Source of the DNA: Thalassospira sp. TSL5-1
Lineage (GTDB): Bacteria > Pseudomonadota > Alphaproteobacteria > Rhodospirillales > Thalassospiraceae
DNA length: 64,000 nt
Reading direction: 5' to 3'
Assembly (NCBI RefSeq): GCF_001907695.1
Contig: NZ_KV880637.1
Location: 124,001 to 188,000, forward strand
Shown in pieces: positions 33,296-39,002 of the stretch. The notes beneath the pieces were generated by a model. It saw only the letters and a program-made list of their open reading frames with translations, searched no databases and was not told the DNA's origin. The position numbers and the translations under genes are program-made. Each line of letters begins with the position of its first letter. Positions within the stretch are counted from its first letter, which is position 1.

Positions 33296-33373
33296 GCCTG
33301 GGGGTTGCAGAATGTCGCCCGATATTTTGCAATTTTTGGGGGTTATCGCATTTCCGGCTTGAGAAGGACGGCT

Positions 33374-34609
33374 ATGACGTACCCAATGACTTTGAATTGG
33401 ACTGACAGAAAAGTCCTCGATTTTTTTCGCGAACATGTCACACGCGGCACGCTTGTTGTGCGCGTCAATGACCGGCACGAGGTTGCGCTGGGTGATGGCG
33501 GCGAACCGCGTGCGACCATGACACTGCCAAATTGGACCGATGCCGTAAAAATGGCCCTGAGCCCGGACCCGGGCTTTGGCGAAGTCTATATGCAGGGCGG
33601 CATTGATATTACATCTGGCGAGCTTGAAGACCTGATCCGGGTGTTGCGCCTTAATTTTGATGGCGGGCATTCCAGCAGCAGCTTTGGCTTGCTGATTGAA
33701 AAGCTCCAGGCCTTCAAGTTCCGCATTGCGCAATTTACCTCGGTCGAGGCGGCGTCGCGCCGGGTGCGCCACCATTATGACATCGGCAATGACCTTTATA
33801 CCCGGTTTCTTGATAGCGACATGCAATATTCCTGTGCCTTCTGGGATGACGGGGCGCATGACCTGGCCGCGGCCCAGCAGCATAAAATGCAACTGACAAC
33901 AGATCGTTTGAAAATTACCGACCCGAACACGCGTGTTGTGGATATCGGCTGTGGCTGGGGTGGGTTAAGTCGCTTTATCCGCCGGACCACGGGGGCCGAA
34001 GTGCACGGCATTACGCTTTCAAACGAGCAATATAACTGGGCACTGGAACGCAAGGCCGAACTGCCCGCTGATTTTCATGAGGGCCTGGATTACCATTTGC
34101 AGGATTACCGGGTTTTTGCCCAGGCCAATCATGACCGTTATGACCGTGTGGTGTCGGTGGGCATGTTTGAACATGTCGGGCGGCCGCAATTTAAAACCTA
34201 TTTCGAGCAGGTTGCCCGACTGCTTAAGGCCGGTGGGCGCGCGGTGATCCATACCATCATCAAACCCCGGCCCGATTTTACCTCTCCCTGGATTGATCGT
34301 TATATCTTTCCCGGTGGTTATATTCCTGCGGTTCACGAAGTTGTCGAGGCAGCGGAAATGGCCGATCTGGATGTAGAGGCCTGCCATTTTCATGCGGGCG
34401 AAAACTATGCCCGCACCTTGATGGCCTGGCGCGAGAATTTCCGTAAAATCGAGCATGAGCTGGACCCGGAAAAATACGATACCGAGTTCAAGCGGATGTG
34501 GGAGTTTTATCTGGCAGGCTGCATTAATGCCTTTGACCCTCGCGAGGGCGGTGGCGGGATGCGGGTGGGCCAGTTTGTGTTCACCAAGTCGGGTTTTCGG
34601 CATCATTAA
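33374..34609 (+). CDS. cfa: Cyclopropane-fatty-acyl-phospholipid synthase
   Basis: Transfers a methylene group from S-adenosylmethionine to unsaturated acyl chains of membrane lipids. The 411-residue protein has the SAM-binding VVDIGCGWGGLSRFIRR, the RVRHHYDIGNDLYTRFLD substrate-region motif and the VGMFEHVGRPQFKTYF and IFPGGYIPAVHEV motifs of the family. AAGGA lies 7 bases upstream of the ATG at 33374. The modification usually rises under acid, stationary-phase or solvent stress. A CRP-like palindrome lies about 85 bases upstream. Confidence 0.95.
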   Translation: MTYPMTLNWTDRKVLDFFREHVTRGTLVVRVNDRHEVALGDGGEPRATMTLPNWTDAVKMALSPDPGFGEVYMQGGIDITSGELEDLIRVLRLNFDGGHSSSSFGLLIEKLQAFKFRIAQFTSVEAASRRVRHHYDIGNDLYTRFLDSDMQYSCAFWDDGAHDLAAAQQHKMQLTTDRLKITDPNTRVVDIGCGWGGLSRFIRRTTGAEVHGITLSNEQYNWALERKAELPADFHEGLDYHLQDYRVFAQANHDRYDRVVSVGMFEHVGRPQFKTYFEQVARLLKAGGRAVIHTIIKPRPDFTSPWIDRYIFPGGYIPAVHEVVEAAEMADLDVEACHFHAGENYARTLMAWRENFRKIEHELDPEKYDTEFKRMWEFYLAGCINAFDPREGGGGMRVGQFVFTKSGFRHH

Positions 34610-34813: not shown

Positions 34814-35251
34814 ATGCTGTATTCAACCCCCGTTGCCGGTGCAGGCCGTGTCGATGATGCTGTTTTTCCGATTTTGACGGATGATGATGCCCGACCGCCT
34901 TATGTTGGTTCGGCCCGTCAATACGCGGCGGCATTGGCGCTTGTTGATCTTTCCAGTTGCGAACGCGATATGTTGCGTGCCCATCTTCGCGCACCCGAAC
35001 AGCGCATAACCGGTACTGAACTGGCTGCGGCTGCCGGGCATTTTGGATCACGTATCGGACATAAAAAATATGGGCGCGTGGGCCGTAAAATTGCCCTTGC
35101 TGCCGGGTTGCCGCAGTGTCAGGCCGATGTCAGCGACTATCTTGCGGCCATTTTTACGCTGGCGGATGGTACTCAAATGGAAAGCGAAGACTGGCACTGG
35201 GGCCTTCATCCGTCACTGGCGCAAGCTTTGCGCGCGTGTGGATATGCGTAA
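34814..35251 (+). CDS. Uncharacterized 145-residue protein
   Basis: I do not recognise a named function. An AGGAGG ribosome site 5 bases before the ATG supports expression. The middle part (RITGTELAAAAGHFGSRIGH, then YGRVGRKIALAAGL) resembles a small domain seen in hypothetical proteins and in some McrA-like restriction proteins, with a T-x-x-L-A-x-A-x-G helix and a YGxxGR motif; that recollection is tentative. There is no signal peptide or membrane segment, and the C-terminus ends LHPSLAQALRACGY. It stands alone between cfa and the AhpD-like gene. Confidence 0.75.
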   Translation: MLYSTPVAGAGRVDDAVFPILTDDDARPPYVGSARQYAAALALVDLSSCERDMLRAHLRAPEQRITGTELAAAAGHFGSRIGHKKYGRVGRKIALAAGLPQCQADVSDYLAAIFTLADGTQMESEDWHWGLHPSLAQALRACGYA

Positions 35252-35298: not shown

Positions 35299-35325
35299 TG
35301 TAACAAATGCCAGTGCTGTTTCGTC
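35299..35325 (+). promoter_or_regulatory. Candidate ECF41-dependent promoter
   Basis: TGTAACA (35,299-35,305), a spacer of exactly 16 bases and CGTC (35,322-35,325) match the ECF41 motif I recall (TGTCACA-N16-CGTC) with one mismatch. It lies about 50 bases upstream of the AhpD-like gene, the usual target class, and that gene is followed by the ECF41 sigma factor gene. Confidence 0.7.
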
Positions 35326-35377
35326 CTGTTTGCAGAGCGTGATTTCAAAATCACGAAATGCAAGACGGAGGACGAAG

Positions 35378-35812
35378 ATGAACCGCTTTGACTTTGCCAA
35401 AACCAGCCCCGTGCTTTTCAAAGGGCTGTATCATGCCTCGACTGTGTTCAATGCAAATACCCGGCTGAGCAAGATGCTGGTGGAAATCGTTAAATGCCGG
35501 GTATCGCAGTTAAATAGCTGTTCTTTTTGTCTGCGCATGCACCGCGATGATTATCTGAAACAGGGCGGTGCGCAGGATAAAATCGATATGCTGGCGACCT
35601 GGCGCAATGCCCGGGATTTTGAACCCGATGAACGTGCAGCACTGGATTGGGCTGAGAAGCTGACTTTGAGAGCAGATACGGCCGAGATTGATTCCAGTTT
35701 TACAGCCCTTCAGGCATGTTTCTCGCCTGAGGAAATTTCCGAACTGACAATGGCAATTGCCCTGATCAATGCCTGGAACCGATTGGGCGTTGCACAGCAT
35801 CCTTTTGCCTAA
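35378..35812 (+). CDS. Carboxymuconolactone decarboxylase / AhpD-like protein
   Basis: A 144-residue all-helical protein of the CMD superfamily. The AhpD-type redox motif CxxCxxxH is present (NSCSFCLRMH; Cys48, Cys51, His55), which suggests peroxidase or thiol chemistry and not lactone decarboxylation. Start at 35378 with GGAGG 6-7 bases upstream. It lies just before an ECF41 sigma factor; this pairing of CMD-type genes with ECF41 is a known recurring context. Its physiological substrate is unknown. Confidence 0.9.
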   Translation: MNRFDFAKTSPVLFKGLYHASTVFNANTRLSKMLVEIVKCRVSQLNSCSFCLRMHRDDYLKQGGAQDKIDMLATWRNARDFEPDERAALDWAEKLTLRADTAEIDSSFTALQACFSPEEISELTMAIALINAWNRLGVAQHPFA

Positions 35813-35895
35813 AGACGGTTATTGTTGGAAAATAGGCGGTGCGGACCGGGATTTGGTCCGCGCCGAATTTTGCGTTGAGAGCGGGAATAGATACC

Positions 35896-36834
35896 ATGTC
35901 GACGGCGATTTTTGAACAACTGCGCCCGCGCCTGTTTGCTTTGGCCTTTCGGTTTTTGGGCAGCTATGCCGATGCCGAAGATGCGGTTCAGGATGTTTGG
36001 CTGCGCTGGCATCAGACCGATATTTCCAGCCTGAAAGATCCGACCGGCTGGCTGATCCGGGTATGTTCGAATTTGTGCCTAGATGTTTTGAAATCGGCGC
36101 GGCGGCGACGGGAAAATTATGTTGGCCAATGGCTCCCCGAACCGTGGGTCAACCCGTTTTTGCGGGAAGGTGAAGACAGGCTCGTGGATCAGGCGTATCT
36201 GTCGCAGGCCTATTTGGTGATGCTTGACGAATTGTCGCCGCATGAACGCATTGCACTGGTGTTGCATGATGTTTTTGACTGGGATCACGCTGCCATTGCC
36301 GAAACATTGGGAAACAGGCCCAACACTACGCGGCAAATTCTGTTTCGGGCGCGCCGTAAAATGGAGGGAGTGACGCCTGAAAGAGATAATATTGAAGACG
36401 GAGAAAAGGCACGTATGCCCGCTTTCAGGTTGCAGGGTGCCGAGGATAAAAAGCCGCTGACGGCCACTGACCTGACGGGTTTTGTCGAGGCTTTGCAATC
36501 GGGGCAGGCGGACCGGATTGCCGCATTTCTGGCCCCGGATGTTACCTTGCAAGGGGATGGTGGTGGTAAGGCCACGACCAACATCAATACCCTGTTTGGA
36601 GCGGATCGGATTGCGCGCTTCTTTGCAGGGATCTGGCGCAAGAACCTTGTCAATGCCGGGCTTACGGTTGTTGAAACGGGGGCGGAGAACTGGCTTCTGT
36701 TCTCTATTGGCGGTGTCGTCGATACGGCATTGACCGTTTCGCTGGCGCGTGACGGGATAAAACGTGTTTTTTTACATCGCAATCCCGACAAACTTGCCCA
36801 TTTTAACGCACTACCGGTTAATAAGCTTGATTGA
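35896..36834 (+). CDS. ECF41-group RNA polymerase sigma factor with SnoaL-like C-terminal domain
   Basis: A 312-residue extracytoplasmic-function sigma factor. Region 2 is at residues about 5-75 (FRFLGSYADAEDAVQDVWLRW), then the linker WLPEP (79-83) typical of ECF41, region 4 (ALVLHDVFDWDHAAIAETLG) and a fused C-terminal NTF2/SnoaL-like domain. That domain carries DGGGK and, at residues 296-300, NPDKL, both hallmarks of the group. The extension replaces a separate anti-sigma factor and tunes activity. A start at 35839 would add 19 residues. The probable target is the AhpD-like gene upstream. Confidence 0.93.
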   Translation: MSTAIFEQLRPRLFALAFRFLGSYADAEDAVQDVWLRWHQTDISSLKDPTGWLIRVCSNLCLDVLKSARRRRENYVGQWLPEPWVNPFLREGEDRLVDQAYLSQAYLVMLDELSPHERIALVLHDVFDWDHAAIAETLGNRPNTTRQILFRARRKMEGVTPERDNIEDGEKARMPAFRLQGAEDKKPLTATDLTGFVEALQSGQADRIAAFLAPDVTLQGDGGGKATTNINTLFGADRIARFFAGIWRKNLVNAGLTVVETGAENWLLFSIGGVVDTALTVSLARDGIKRVFLHRNPDKLAHFNALPVNKLD

Positions 36835-36932: not shown

Positions 36933-39002
36933 TTAATTTGCCGGATTGGCAACGTCGTCATTGGCAAGAATTTTCAGGCCGAAGGTTTCTGCCAGAACCG
37001 GGGGAGCAGGCGGAACCGGGCTGTTCATCAGGTCCGCAAACGGAACCGGTTTTTCCGGAGTCAGCGTGATTTTCAGGTGCTGCGGTTTGGCAAGCCAGTT
37101 TGCCAGTTGCTGTAGCGATGTTCCCAATTGCCCGGTTGTGCCAAACTGTTGTTGCATCTGCATGATGCTCATGCCGGCAGTTAGCTGCAACTGATCGGAC
37201 GGAATACCGGTTTTAAGCGCAATCAGCCGTAAAATGGAGGGAACCAGATTATCGCCATAAATTTCAAGCGAGGCTGATTTCAGTTGCCCATGTTCGCCAA
37301 ATACAAAAGGCAGTTGTCGTTCGGCGCGCATTACCGGAATGGATTGCAGCTGATCAACAACTTCCGGGGTTAAACCGCTTAAGGTCAGCGAGAATTTAAT
37401 GGTGCCAAAGTCCCGTACGGTAAGTTCATCAACGGCATATTGGAAATCACCGCTTTCTGCAGACCATTTTTGATGGGCATCCATATCCAGCGTGATCTGG
37501 GAAAACTTCTTAAGGCCCAGTGCGTCCAACAACAGAGGGTCGTTTGCAAACTCGTCCGGGATATCAATGCTGACCCCGCCGACATGGCCGGTTTGGGCGC
37601 GGGCAACGTCTCTGCCGCCTTCGATGACAGGACCAACATCACCGATTGCACCGCCAAATTCATCGATGGTCAGGTGAAAGTCCTGAACCCCGGAAACGCC
37701 CACTTCCAAACCGGAAAACACATAGGTCGAGAAATAGGGAACGCTGAAGGGGAAACCCATTTCGCCCAATGTGCGGGTTTCCAGCAAGGCAAGCTGTTCG
37801 GCCTCGTCTGCCACGGGTGTGATATATTCCAGGGTCGAGGCGATGCTTTCAAGGTTGACGTCGCGCAATGTCAGATTGTCGAGGCCAAGCTTGGTGGTAA
37901 TGCCGGAATCGCTGCCATGTATGGAAAAGCCGCGCGAGGCAACCTCGCTGATCATCTGATCGCCAAGATTTTGAATGGAAAAATGATCCCAGCGAATTTC
38001 GGCTTCCGGGCTGGAATAAACCTGGTCTGAAAGTTCCAGCTTGCCAATTTTAACGGTTTCAAAGGCTGTCAGCCAGCGGCCAAAATCGAATGGCTCGCCG
38101 GGCATGGGAATTTGCTCGGGGTCAATCGCCTGGTCAAAATCATTGACTTCAATGCGGCCAATTTCAAAGGCACCCCGATCTTCAGGCAGGTGGACCTTGA
38201 GGCCGTTGACACTGGCCTTTTTAAAGGATTGATTGTCCAGGCCATCAATCAGGACACCGGCTGCCGTCAGCTTTGAATGATCGGGCAGGGACATGGCAAG
38301 ATCGGCCAGAGCCATATGCTCGCAGGATTCAGCCGAATTCCAGTTAAACTCTGCGGTATCTGCCTGTTGAAGCAGCGTCATTGGCCCGGCGCAGTTAGCA
38401 AAAATGCTTTGTGCAACACTGGCTTTGCCAAATTCAGACCCGGCGTCATAGCTCCAGGCACCCGTGGTAATGCCACCAATATGGTCAAAGGCAATATCTT
38501 CGATATGGATATCGGCGATGTTGCTGTTTTGCCCAAGGAAAGTGTGTTTCAGGCCGGGGCTTTTGATGTCACCGGCGGAAAATGTTTCGGGAAGCCAGCT
38601 TGATGTATCGGCCGAAACATCGGCAAGCTCCGCCTTATCAAAACTGATAACGCGACCGTTACTCTCGATCCGGGCATTTGCAAGCTGCATTTTGGCAGCC
38701 AGCGCATCACCAAGGGGGTTAACACCATAAACGGCGAGCCAGTCGATGCCGGAAATATCAACGTTACCTGCCTGGTAAACGGTGCCATCCATGCTGATGA
38801 TTTTCACGTCATCTGCCGACATGGTGCCCTTGAACAGCGACATGTGGAAATTGGAAAATTCACCGCGAATTTGGGATTGCGGGTCGGTCAGGGCGCTTCG
38901 CAGGTTTTTTTCGGTGTAAATGGGGGCCATATAATGCAGCCCGACACCAATGGCAGCGACGATTACGACACTGCCAATAATGAATTTTGCGGTTTTTGCC
39001 AT
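36933..39002 (-). CDS. Large membrane-anchored periplasmic protein of unknown function
   Basis: 689 residues starting with a hydrophobic anchor (FIIGSVVIVAAIGVGLHYMA, residues about 7-26), so most of the protein should lie in the periplasm. Repeated beta-rich blocks with endings like ISGIDWLAVYGVN and GIRINK-like patterns recall AsmA/DUF945-type proteins, but I cannot assign it firmly. The C-terminal part is rich in Gln, Met and Pro. It has a private terminator, and the sequence upstream of 39,002 is AT-rich. It is one of the genes standing between leuB and asd. The function is not known. Confidence 0.8.
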   Translation of the reverse strand: MAKTAKFIIGSVVIVAAIGVGLHYMAPIYTEKNLRSALTDPQSQIRGEFSNFHMSLFKGTMSADDVKIISMDGTVYQAGNVDISGIDWLAVYGVNPLGDALAAKMQLANARIESNGRVISFDKAELADVSADTSSWLPETFSAGDIKSPGLKHTFLGQNSNIADIHIEDIAFDHIGGITTGAWSYDAGSEFGKASVAQSIFANCAGPMTLLQQADTAEFNWNSAESCEHMALADLAMSLPDHSKLTAAGVLIDGLDNQSFKKASVNGLKVHLPEDRGAFEIGRIEVNDFDQAIDPEQIPMPGEPFDFGRWLTAFETVKIGKLELSDQVYSSPEAEIRWDHFSIQNLGDQMISEVASRGFSIHGSDSGITTKLGLDNLTLRDVNLESIASTLEYITPVADEAEQLALLETRTLGEMGFPFSVPYFSTYVFSGLEVGVSGVQDFHLTIDEFGGAIGDVGPVIEGGRDVARAQTGHVGGVSIDIPDEFANDPLLLDALGLKKFSQITLDMDAHQKWSAESGDFQYAVDELTVRDFGTIKFSLTLSGLTPEVVDQLQSIPVMRAERQLPFVFGEHGQLKSASLEIYGDNLVPSILRLIALKTGIPSDQLQLTAGMSIMQMQQQFGTTGQLGTSLQQLANWLAKPQHLKITLTPEKPVPFADLMNSPVPPAPPVLAETFGLKILANDDVANPAN

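Follow-up and report, generated by a model that had tools for sequence, protein, structure and literature searches.

The window, by which we mean the whole stretch of 64,000 nucleotides that was analysed (G000:C1:124001-188000), carries a gene for a CMD/AhpD-like protein followed on the same strand by a gene for an ECF41-type sigma factor. The genome holding the window and 28 relatives made up a set of 29 genomes (the genus set), which we take to be Thalassospira. That assignment follows from the best-matching relatives of the sigma factor on named contigs, 22 named loci of which 21 are Thalassospira records and one is a Rhodospirillales MAG. The features of the locus are listed below, with the basis of each call in brackets.

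33305-34609, + strand: cyclopropane-fatty-acid synthase-like gene (cfa), upstream and co-directional (ORF, NCBIfam)
34814-35251, + strand: orf145, a co-directional 145-aa gene, putative source of read-through RNA (ORF)
35299-35305, + strand: -35 element TGTAACA (direct reading, genus comparison)
35322-35325, + strand: -10 element CGTC (direct reading, genus comparison)
35322-35334, + strand: left arm of the inverted repeat, CGTCCT-g-TTTGCA, nearly all of it upstream of the expected start
35334 (could be 35332-35335), + strand: expected transcription start (placed 9 nt past CGTC, as in S. meliloti SMb20029-rpoE9)
35338-35355, + strand: inner hairpin of 7 bp with a 4-nt loop, near the 5' end of the expected mRNA (fold)
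35359-35374, + strand: right arm of the inverted repeat, TGCAA...GGAGGACG, overlapping the Shine-Dalgarno (fold)
35367-35371, + strand: Shine-Dalgarno GGAGG of the CMD gene (direct reading)
35378-35812, + strand: CMD/AhpD-like gene, 144 aa, CxxCxxxH (direct reading, Pfam, NCBIfam)
35837-35865, + strand: hairpin in the CMD-sigma gap, 13 pairs with a T-rich tail (terminator scan)
35896-36834, + strand: ECF41-type sigma factor gene, 312 aa, with sigma2, sigma4 and a SnoaL-like extension (motifs, Pfam, NCBIfam)

The distance from CGTC to the ATG (35378), read directly from the sequence, is 52 nt, and the sigma gene begins 83 nt past the CMD gene. The first-pass annotation had placed TGTAACA-N16-CGTC about 50 bases before an AhpD-like CxxCxxxH gene, followed by a sigma factor with the strings WLPEP, DGGGK and NPDKL, and all of this was borne out. 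The two promoter elements lie at 35299-35305 and 35322-35325. The CMD protein contains CSFCLRMH, a CxxCxxxH motif, and it matched Pfam CMD (E 3e-14) and TIGR00778 (ahpD_dom, above its cut-off). All three strings were read in the sigma factor (P0001). WLPEP was kept at 29/29 genus loci and at 71/81 other loci, DGGGK at 26/29 and 52/81, and NPDKL at 27/29 and 51/81. As signatures of ECF41 the strings stand differently: WLPEP is named in the available text of PMC3426412, while DGGGK and NPDKL are absent from that text and stem from the first-pass annotation.

Pfam gave Sigma70_r2 (PF04542, E 1.6e-13) and Sigma70_r4_2 (PF08281, E 1e-11) for the sigma factor. Its C-terminal extension (approximately residues 160-312) is SnoaL-like, the score for SnoaL_2 (PF12680) being 25.6 bits, just below the cut-off of 27. 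The solved structure closest to it by sequence is SigJ (5xe7, E 1.6e-40 across residues 3-249). The best NCBIfam family by E-value was TIGR02957 (SigX4), at 273 bits against a cut-off of 323; this family and the SigJ model, which also scored below its cut-off, were far ahead of the other NCBIfam matches. It may be noted that the cut-off of TIGR02957 was reached in only 18 of 387 class genomes, of which 76 had a match at 1e-40. The CMD gene lies directly upstream of the ECF41 gene in 29/29 genus genomes, the identity of the best sigma-factor match in the 28 relatives being 50-86%. In one of them (L016, G027:C1:461114-462055), the sigma gene match contained one TGA and one TAA, and the CMD gene aligned over its full length. 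Judged from its sequence, the locus is an ECF41 locus of the textbook type.

A 689-aa protein encoded on the opposite strand (36933-39002, - strand) converges on the sigma gene. It is present at 10 of the 22 named loci, with an identity of 24-33% at seven of these. No Pfam or NCBIfam match was obtained for it at E 0.001, which leaves some room for an anti-sigma factor beside the sigma gene.

The promoter and its probable sigma factor

Among published ECF41 loci a COE gene lies upstream in 107 of 373, and the promoter motif precedes the COE gene in 97 of these 107 (PMC3426412, available text). In B. licheniformis and R. sphaeroides, the same text gives the COE gene or operon as the sole detectable target; it also reports that activity is regulated by the C-terminal extension and that no phenotype was seen. 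The available part of PMC6180224 names the CMD gene as the single target of S. meliloti RpoE9. The present locus resembles those described in the accessible portions of these two papers in having a COE gene followed by the sigma gene, a TGTCACA-N16-CGTC-type promoter ahead of the COE gene, a fused C-terminal extension and a target that is apparently a single operon. The statement in the first-pass annotation that ECF41 factors adjoin COE genes and use TGTCACA-N16-CGTC agrees with PMC3426412 as far as its available text goes. Unlike the ECF41 consensus, the -35 element is TGTAAC in the genus and CGTAAC in one genome. In the window, the A at the fourth base is the sole departure from TGTCACA, and 'near-perfect', as the match had been called, is a fair description.

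When the 4.97 Mb genome was scanned for TGTNACA-N16-CGTC, as the first-pass annotation had proposed, the site at the locus was recovered and no genome-wide enrichment was seen; there were 5 sites, and the reversed control pattern also gave 5. Hence, the string by itself proves nothing. The promoter stands above chance because of its position, namely the CMD-ECF41 gene order with the motif before the CMD gene across the genus. TGTAAC-N17-CGTC precedes the CMD gene in 28 of the 29 genomes, and CGTAAC takes its place in the 29th (L022); CGTCCT occurs at the -10 position in all 29. We conclude that the ECF41 sigma factor very probably activates its immediate upstream neighbour, the CMD/AhpD-like gene, from TGTAACA-N16-CGTC. 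That the sigma factor drives this gene, as had been proposed, is well supported by the comparison and matches the results of Wecke 2012 and those on S. meliloti RpoE9. The pairing of sigma factor, CMD gene and promoter is in itself the already known ECF41 arrangement, and the inverted repeat described below was not part of the earlier annotation.

A genome-wide ECF41 regulon was considered and rejected, the motif not being enriched (5 against 5 in the window's own genome, and rarer than the control in the genus). TGTAAC-N17-CGTC was rarer than its reversed control in 29/29 genus genomes, as would be expected if the sigma factor had very few targets. A FecI-like ECF sigma gene also has TGTAACA-N16-CGTC 54 nt ahead of it (L003, G000:C2:113783-113809; also L236 and L237). 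This gene was rejected as a target, since the site is common only to the window's own genome and its nearest relative, G023 (2 of the 20 genomes with the gene). In both, as judged by eye, the -10 CCGTC can pair with a downstream GACGG, enclosing an inner hairpin with different arms in each genome (CTGCCAC:GTGGCAG in one, TGTCGC:GCGACA in the other). Some parts of the genus share several further motif strings, five of which were examined at six places. A PadR-like regulator gene is preceded, at 119 nt, by a motif of the TGTAACAAACCACCTGC type (L260, G005:C2:2651826-2651852; L261, G025:C1:334054-334080), and similar strings were found in five genomes of one clade. The PadR-like gene is a possible second ECF41 target in that clade, or the match is due to chance. 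Some of the remaining strings examined were within or beside ORFs. An identical string, TGTAACCCCGACAATGGCTAAAACGTC, was present in many of the 29 genomes (L256; e.g. G013:C1:1882177-1882203), outside any ORF of 80 aa spanning it.

The fourth base of the -35 element was compared using a class-set promoter pattern that permitted either C or A. It was C in 70/70 class-set promoters, of which 68 were outside the genus and two at second ECF41 loci inside it. At the CMD-ECF41 promoters of the genus A is fixed. With C at all 70 other promoters, the A goes with the lineage of this sigma factor. When the genus sigma factor was compared with 81 others, 21 distinguishing residues passed the filter, and six of these are in sigma4 at P0001 143-155. 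They are N, N or T, I, L, F and K in the genus, against mostly A, A, L, A or V, S, and R or H elsewhere. From its position, this segment would be the helix that reads the -35 element. The joint change of base and residues is one evolutionary event, and so is only a lead; it does pose a clean question of specificity in Thalassospira.

In most of the main clade an inverted repeat with TGTAAC at its tip, followed by a T-rich stretch, was observed (L019-L021, L025, L027, L028, L030-L033, L035, L036, L038 and L039; e.g. AAGGGCGGACC...GGTCCGCCCTT in L021). It is strong (z < -2) in 15/29 genomes, and may represent an upstream-gene terminator that overlaps the promoter. A terminator at the -35 element was rejected as a general feature, the value for the window being z -0.7.

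Pairing between the -10 region and the Shine-Dalgarno

When the region from the -10 element to the ATG was folded, the bases after CGTC paired with the Shine-Dalgarno region of the CMD gene in 29/29 genus genomes. The 12 nt formed by CGTC and the next eight bases, upstream of the expected start, made 7-12 pairs with the rest of the leader (mean 9.2, 29/29 genomes). In the window, the stem consists of CGTCCT:AGGACG and an inner TTTGCA/TGCAA stem (-23.3 kcal/mol); other forms are TCCTGTTTGCA:TGCAAACAGGA (L026), TCCTTGTTG:CAACAAGGA (L021) and TCC-TGATTGCA:TGCAATCAcGGA (L023). The -10 CGTC is itself part of the stem in L014-L016. The expected number of pairs between these 12 nt and the Shine-Dalgarno window was 8.6 on average, with a minimum of 6.0 among the 29 genomes. 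For 116 control genes of the genus the same measure was 1.8, and it rose to 4.2 when CGTCCT was grafted onto them. The matching of CCT to any Shine-Dalgarno therefore accounts for part of the pairing, and not for all of it; the outermost pairs, TCC:GGA, follow in part from CGTCC meeting any Shine-Dalgarno.

The arms vary in a compensated manner. A T:A pair became A:T in one clade (L023, L024, L034 and L040-L042), a G:C pair became T:A in L016, a T:A pair was inserted on both arms in the main clade, and L021 has T:A where L035 has G:C at the matching pair. Past the Shine-Dalgarno, some of the stem is uncompensated in L029-L033 and L036. Arms were also exchanged between clades. The left arm of clade B gave -12.9 with the right arm of B, -5.2 with that of A and -6.8 with that of C; the left arm of clade C gave -12.0 with C, -5.0 with A and -10.9 with B; and that of clade A gave -10.0 with A, -6.3 with C and -9.7 with B. 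Foreign-clade right arms are mostly poorer partners for a left arm than its own, the exceptions being clade B right arms when set against left arms of A or of C.

The genes upstream are also conserved. cfa is upstream and co-directional in 22/22 named loci, and orf145 in 21 of the 22, its end (tblastn ends) falling approximately 128-303 nt before the CMD gene in 19 of the named loci, the exceptions being L044, L049 and L051. On the + strand of the window, the terminator scan showed no site resembling an intrinsic terminator between orf145 and the promoter. The pairing, the covariation, the universality in the genus and the synteny are computed observations, and the inverted repeat is firm as a structure in the genus and unproven as a mechanism.

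A second hairpin lies between the two genes. In 29/29 genomes the CMD-sigma gap contains a hairpin of at least 10 pairs, which in 28 of them precedes the sigma start by 13-35 nt; in L020 the best hairpin is closer to the CMD gene. It was stronger than all 40 shuffles in 20/29 genomes (mean z -3.8), the value for the window being -24.1 against -17.7 for the best shuffle. The arms differ and yet remain complementary (L014-L042), e.g. GGCGATACGGG:CCCGTATCGCC and GCGGTACAGGC:GCCTGTGCCGC. It is not a genome-wide repeat, only itself and four partial matches of 18-19 nt being found in the window's own genome. The terminator scan gave 5 sites in 2.5 kb compared with 4.2 in shuffles and is uninformative on its own, so that the support comes from the stem length and the shuffle test. 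This hairpin may lower the expression of the sigma factor relative to its target by ending part of the transcripts past the CMD gene, and simple read-through autoregulation of the sigma gene is hence not to be assumed.

A proposed translational gate

The inverted repeat suggests that a translational gate is overlaid on the promoter, a reading to which we assign a probability of roughly 0.55. RNA begun by the ECF41 holoenzyme near 35334 would lack the left arm, would keep only the short 5' hairpin and would be translatable. Read-through RNA from cfa/orf145 would carry both arms, fold and close the ribosome site, and only the transcript started by the sigma factor would yield CMD protein. We infer the start site, the presence of the read-through RNA and the effect on translation. 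The expected start follows S. meliloti SMb20029-rpoE9, where the end of the motif is 9 nt upstream of the mapped start (PMC3616915, available text).

The probability that the Shine-Dalgarno is unpaired was computed for both RNAs. With 12 nt of coding sequence included, the genus mean was 0.12 for the read-through RNA and 0.58 for the RNA from the start site, the corresponding values for controls being 0.42 and 0.46. The gain exceeded 0.25 in 25/29 genomes against 12/116 controls, and p-values for such a comparison are overstated, the control genes and the 29 genomes being related. With 40 nt of coding sequence, the genus mean went from 0.14 to 0.36, and the gain exceeded 0.25 in 13/29 genomes against 7/116 controls. 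For the window copy, the predicted opening was 0.31 to 0.64 with 12 nt and 0.31 to 0.33 with 40 nt, so that its gain is all but gone when the longer coding stretch is folded.

This last result is in keeping with a simpler reading, in which the locus is a plain autoregulated ECF41 locus as described in 2012 and the hairpin is a stabiliser of the 5' end of the mRNA, or incidental. Every part of the known arrangement is present, and the inner hairpin alone would stand near the 5' end of the mRNA. The conserved pairing, however, draws on bases that precede the expected start and are of no use to a stabiliser of that mRNA, and we consider the simpler reading rather unlikely. The inverted repeat could also be a translational sensor (an RNA thermometer or a ligand-sensing leader) in a normal 5' UTR, with transcription starting further upstream. 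RNA thermometers hide the Shine-Dalgarno by pairing, and the fold UCCUUG:CAAGGA likewise hides it here. Against such a sensor are the involvement of the -10 CGTC itself in the stem in L014-L016 and the start of the S. meliloti ECF41 operon 9 nt past CGTC; Rfam, too, gave no family at threshold for the locus, the only matches being three below threshold that were taken as chance. A sensor is accordingly improbable. Least probable of all is a DNA operator for a dimeric regulator: a repressor site overlapping the -10 element and the start would be sensible, and some arms are uninterrupted (L026, L021), but a DNA-binding site would hold its sequence and spacing, whereas the region from CGTC to ATG spans 54-69 nt across the genus, the arms vary by clade, and G-U pairs and bulges are present.

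The proposed translational gate has counterparts elsewhere. In phage T4, the late promoters of I-TevI and segB are positioned such that the late transcripts lack the sequence closing the ribosome site, and in soc and e, among others, RNA structure hides the ribosome site (PMC2988022, available text). As with I-TevI and segB in that text, the Shine-Dalgarno at the Thalassospira locus would be closed in the longer RNA and the gene's expected start lies past part of the hairpin, here by computation only. Unlike the T4 genes of that account, the gene is cellular and is read from an ECF sigma promoter, not from a phage late promoter; no homology is claimed. The inverted repeat joining the -10 element and start to the Shine-Dalgarno, and the hairpin between the genes, set the locus apart from the ECF41 loci as published in the texts available. 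The main text of PMC3426412, in its available form, makes no mention of a hairpin, inverted repeat, Shine-Dalgarno, read-through or secondary structure. A search of titles and abstract openings, with most subscription papers outside its scope, found no such gate at an ECF promoter. The arrangement of a promoter within a hairpin thus appears to be new for the ECF41 group. A likeness may also be seen to the protection of IS10 and IS50 from outside promoters, where folded read-through RNA blocks translation; these are mobile elements, unlike the Thalassospira locus.

ECF41 loci beyond the genus

Two samples of ECF41 loci from outside the genus were analysed. The first came from a class search, in which ECF41 was found in 76 of 387 genomes; of 78 places, 30 loci were taken directly and 43 were fetched, and 11 stretches from order and genus searches were added. 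When arms were swapped between families among 61 non-sigma target promoters from 34 genera, matched arms gave -8.66 kcal/mol and swapped arms -7.12 kcal/mol (permutation p 5e-5), the effect being driven by a minority, with 4 of the 34 genera at an individual rank of 0.05 or below. The gain in unpaired Shine-Dalgarno was 0.29 per genus (49 usable promoters, 34 genera), compared to 0.14 in 123 controls (p 8e-5), and it exceeded 0.25 in 18/34 genera against 28/123 controls.

The second sample came from a phylum search (59 of 397 genomes), several of its families being also represented in the first. From this, 47 of 49 loci were used (L203 and L207 were left out, their genomes being in the first set), eight were without the motif, and five further places (G590, G624, G818, G822 and one of G647) were left out. 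The arm swap was again positive (p 0.001 for 30 promoters, 0.003 for 19 genera). The gain in unpaired Shine-Dalgarno in this sample was the same as that for controls (0.13 and 0.13, p 0.54), exceeding 0.25 in 4 of 20 genera and 10 of 55 controls.

Good-looking copies outside the genus are L117, L140, L152, L160, L166/168/181, L172, L205 and L187/L188. In L205, CCTTG...CAAGGAG surrounds an inner hairpin, and two genomes of one genus have CAGTGGG:CCCACTG (L188) and CAGGGTG:CACCCTG (L187). L197 has a stem of 8 bp by eye and a computed gain of just 0.07. A guard against read-through would be expected to prefer loci with co-directional upstream genes. Outside the genus, the value was 0.32 with such a gene (n=17) and 0.20 otherwise (n=24), a trend only (p 0.08; p 0.21 per genus) from crude ORF-based calls in which 10 of 51 rows had no gene call and were dropped.

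The predicted gate is universal in the genus and patchy elsewhere. ECF41 target promoters may have been built recurrently as promoter-in-hairpin gates, arisen many times in different sequences, a generalisation that we offer tentatively, with the odds somewhat against it. If it is true, the sigma factor would set both transcription and which RNA is translatable, and stray transcripts could not start the positive loop. The ECF41 arrangement has no evident anti-sigma factor and, where tested, a single target operon, which can include the sigma gene itself, so that leakage from a neighbour could lock the loop on. In Thalassospira, the proposed promoter-in-hairpin gate is a new, testable layer on the known ECF41 locus. 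If the proposal is true, only RNA started by the sigma factor would be translatable, which would explain how the ECF41 loop stays off, and a device known from T4 would be extended to ordinary bacterial gene control.
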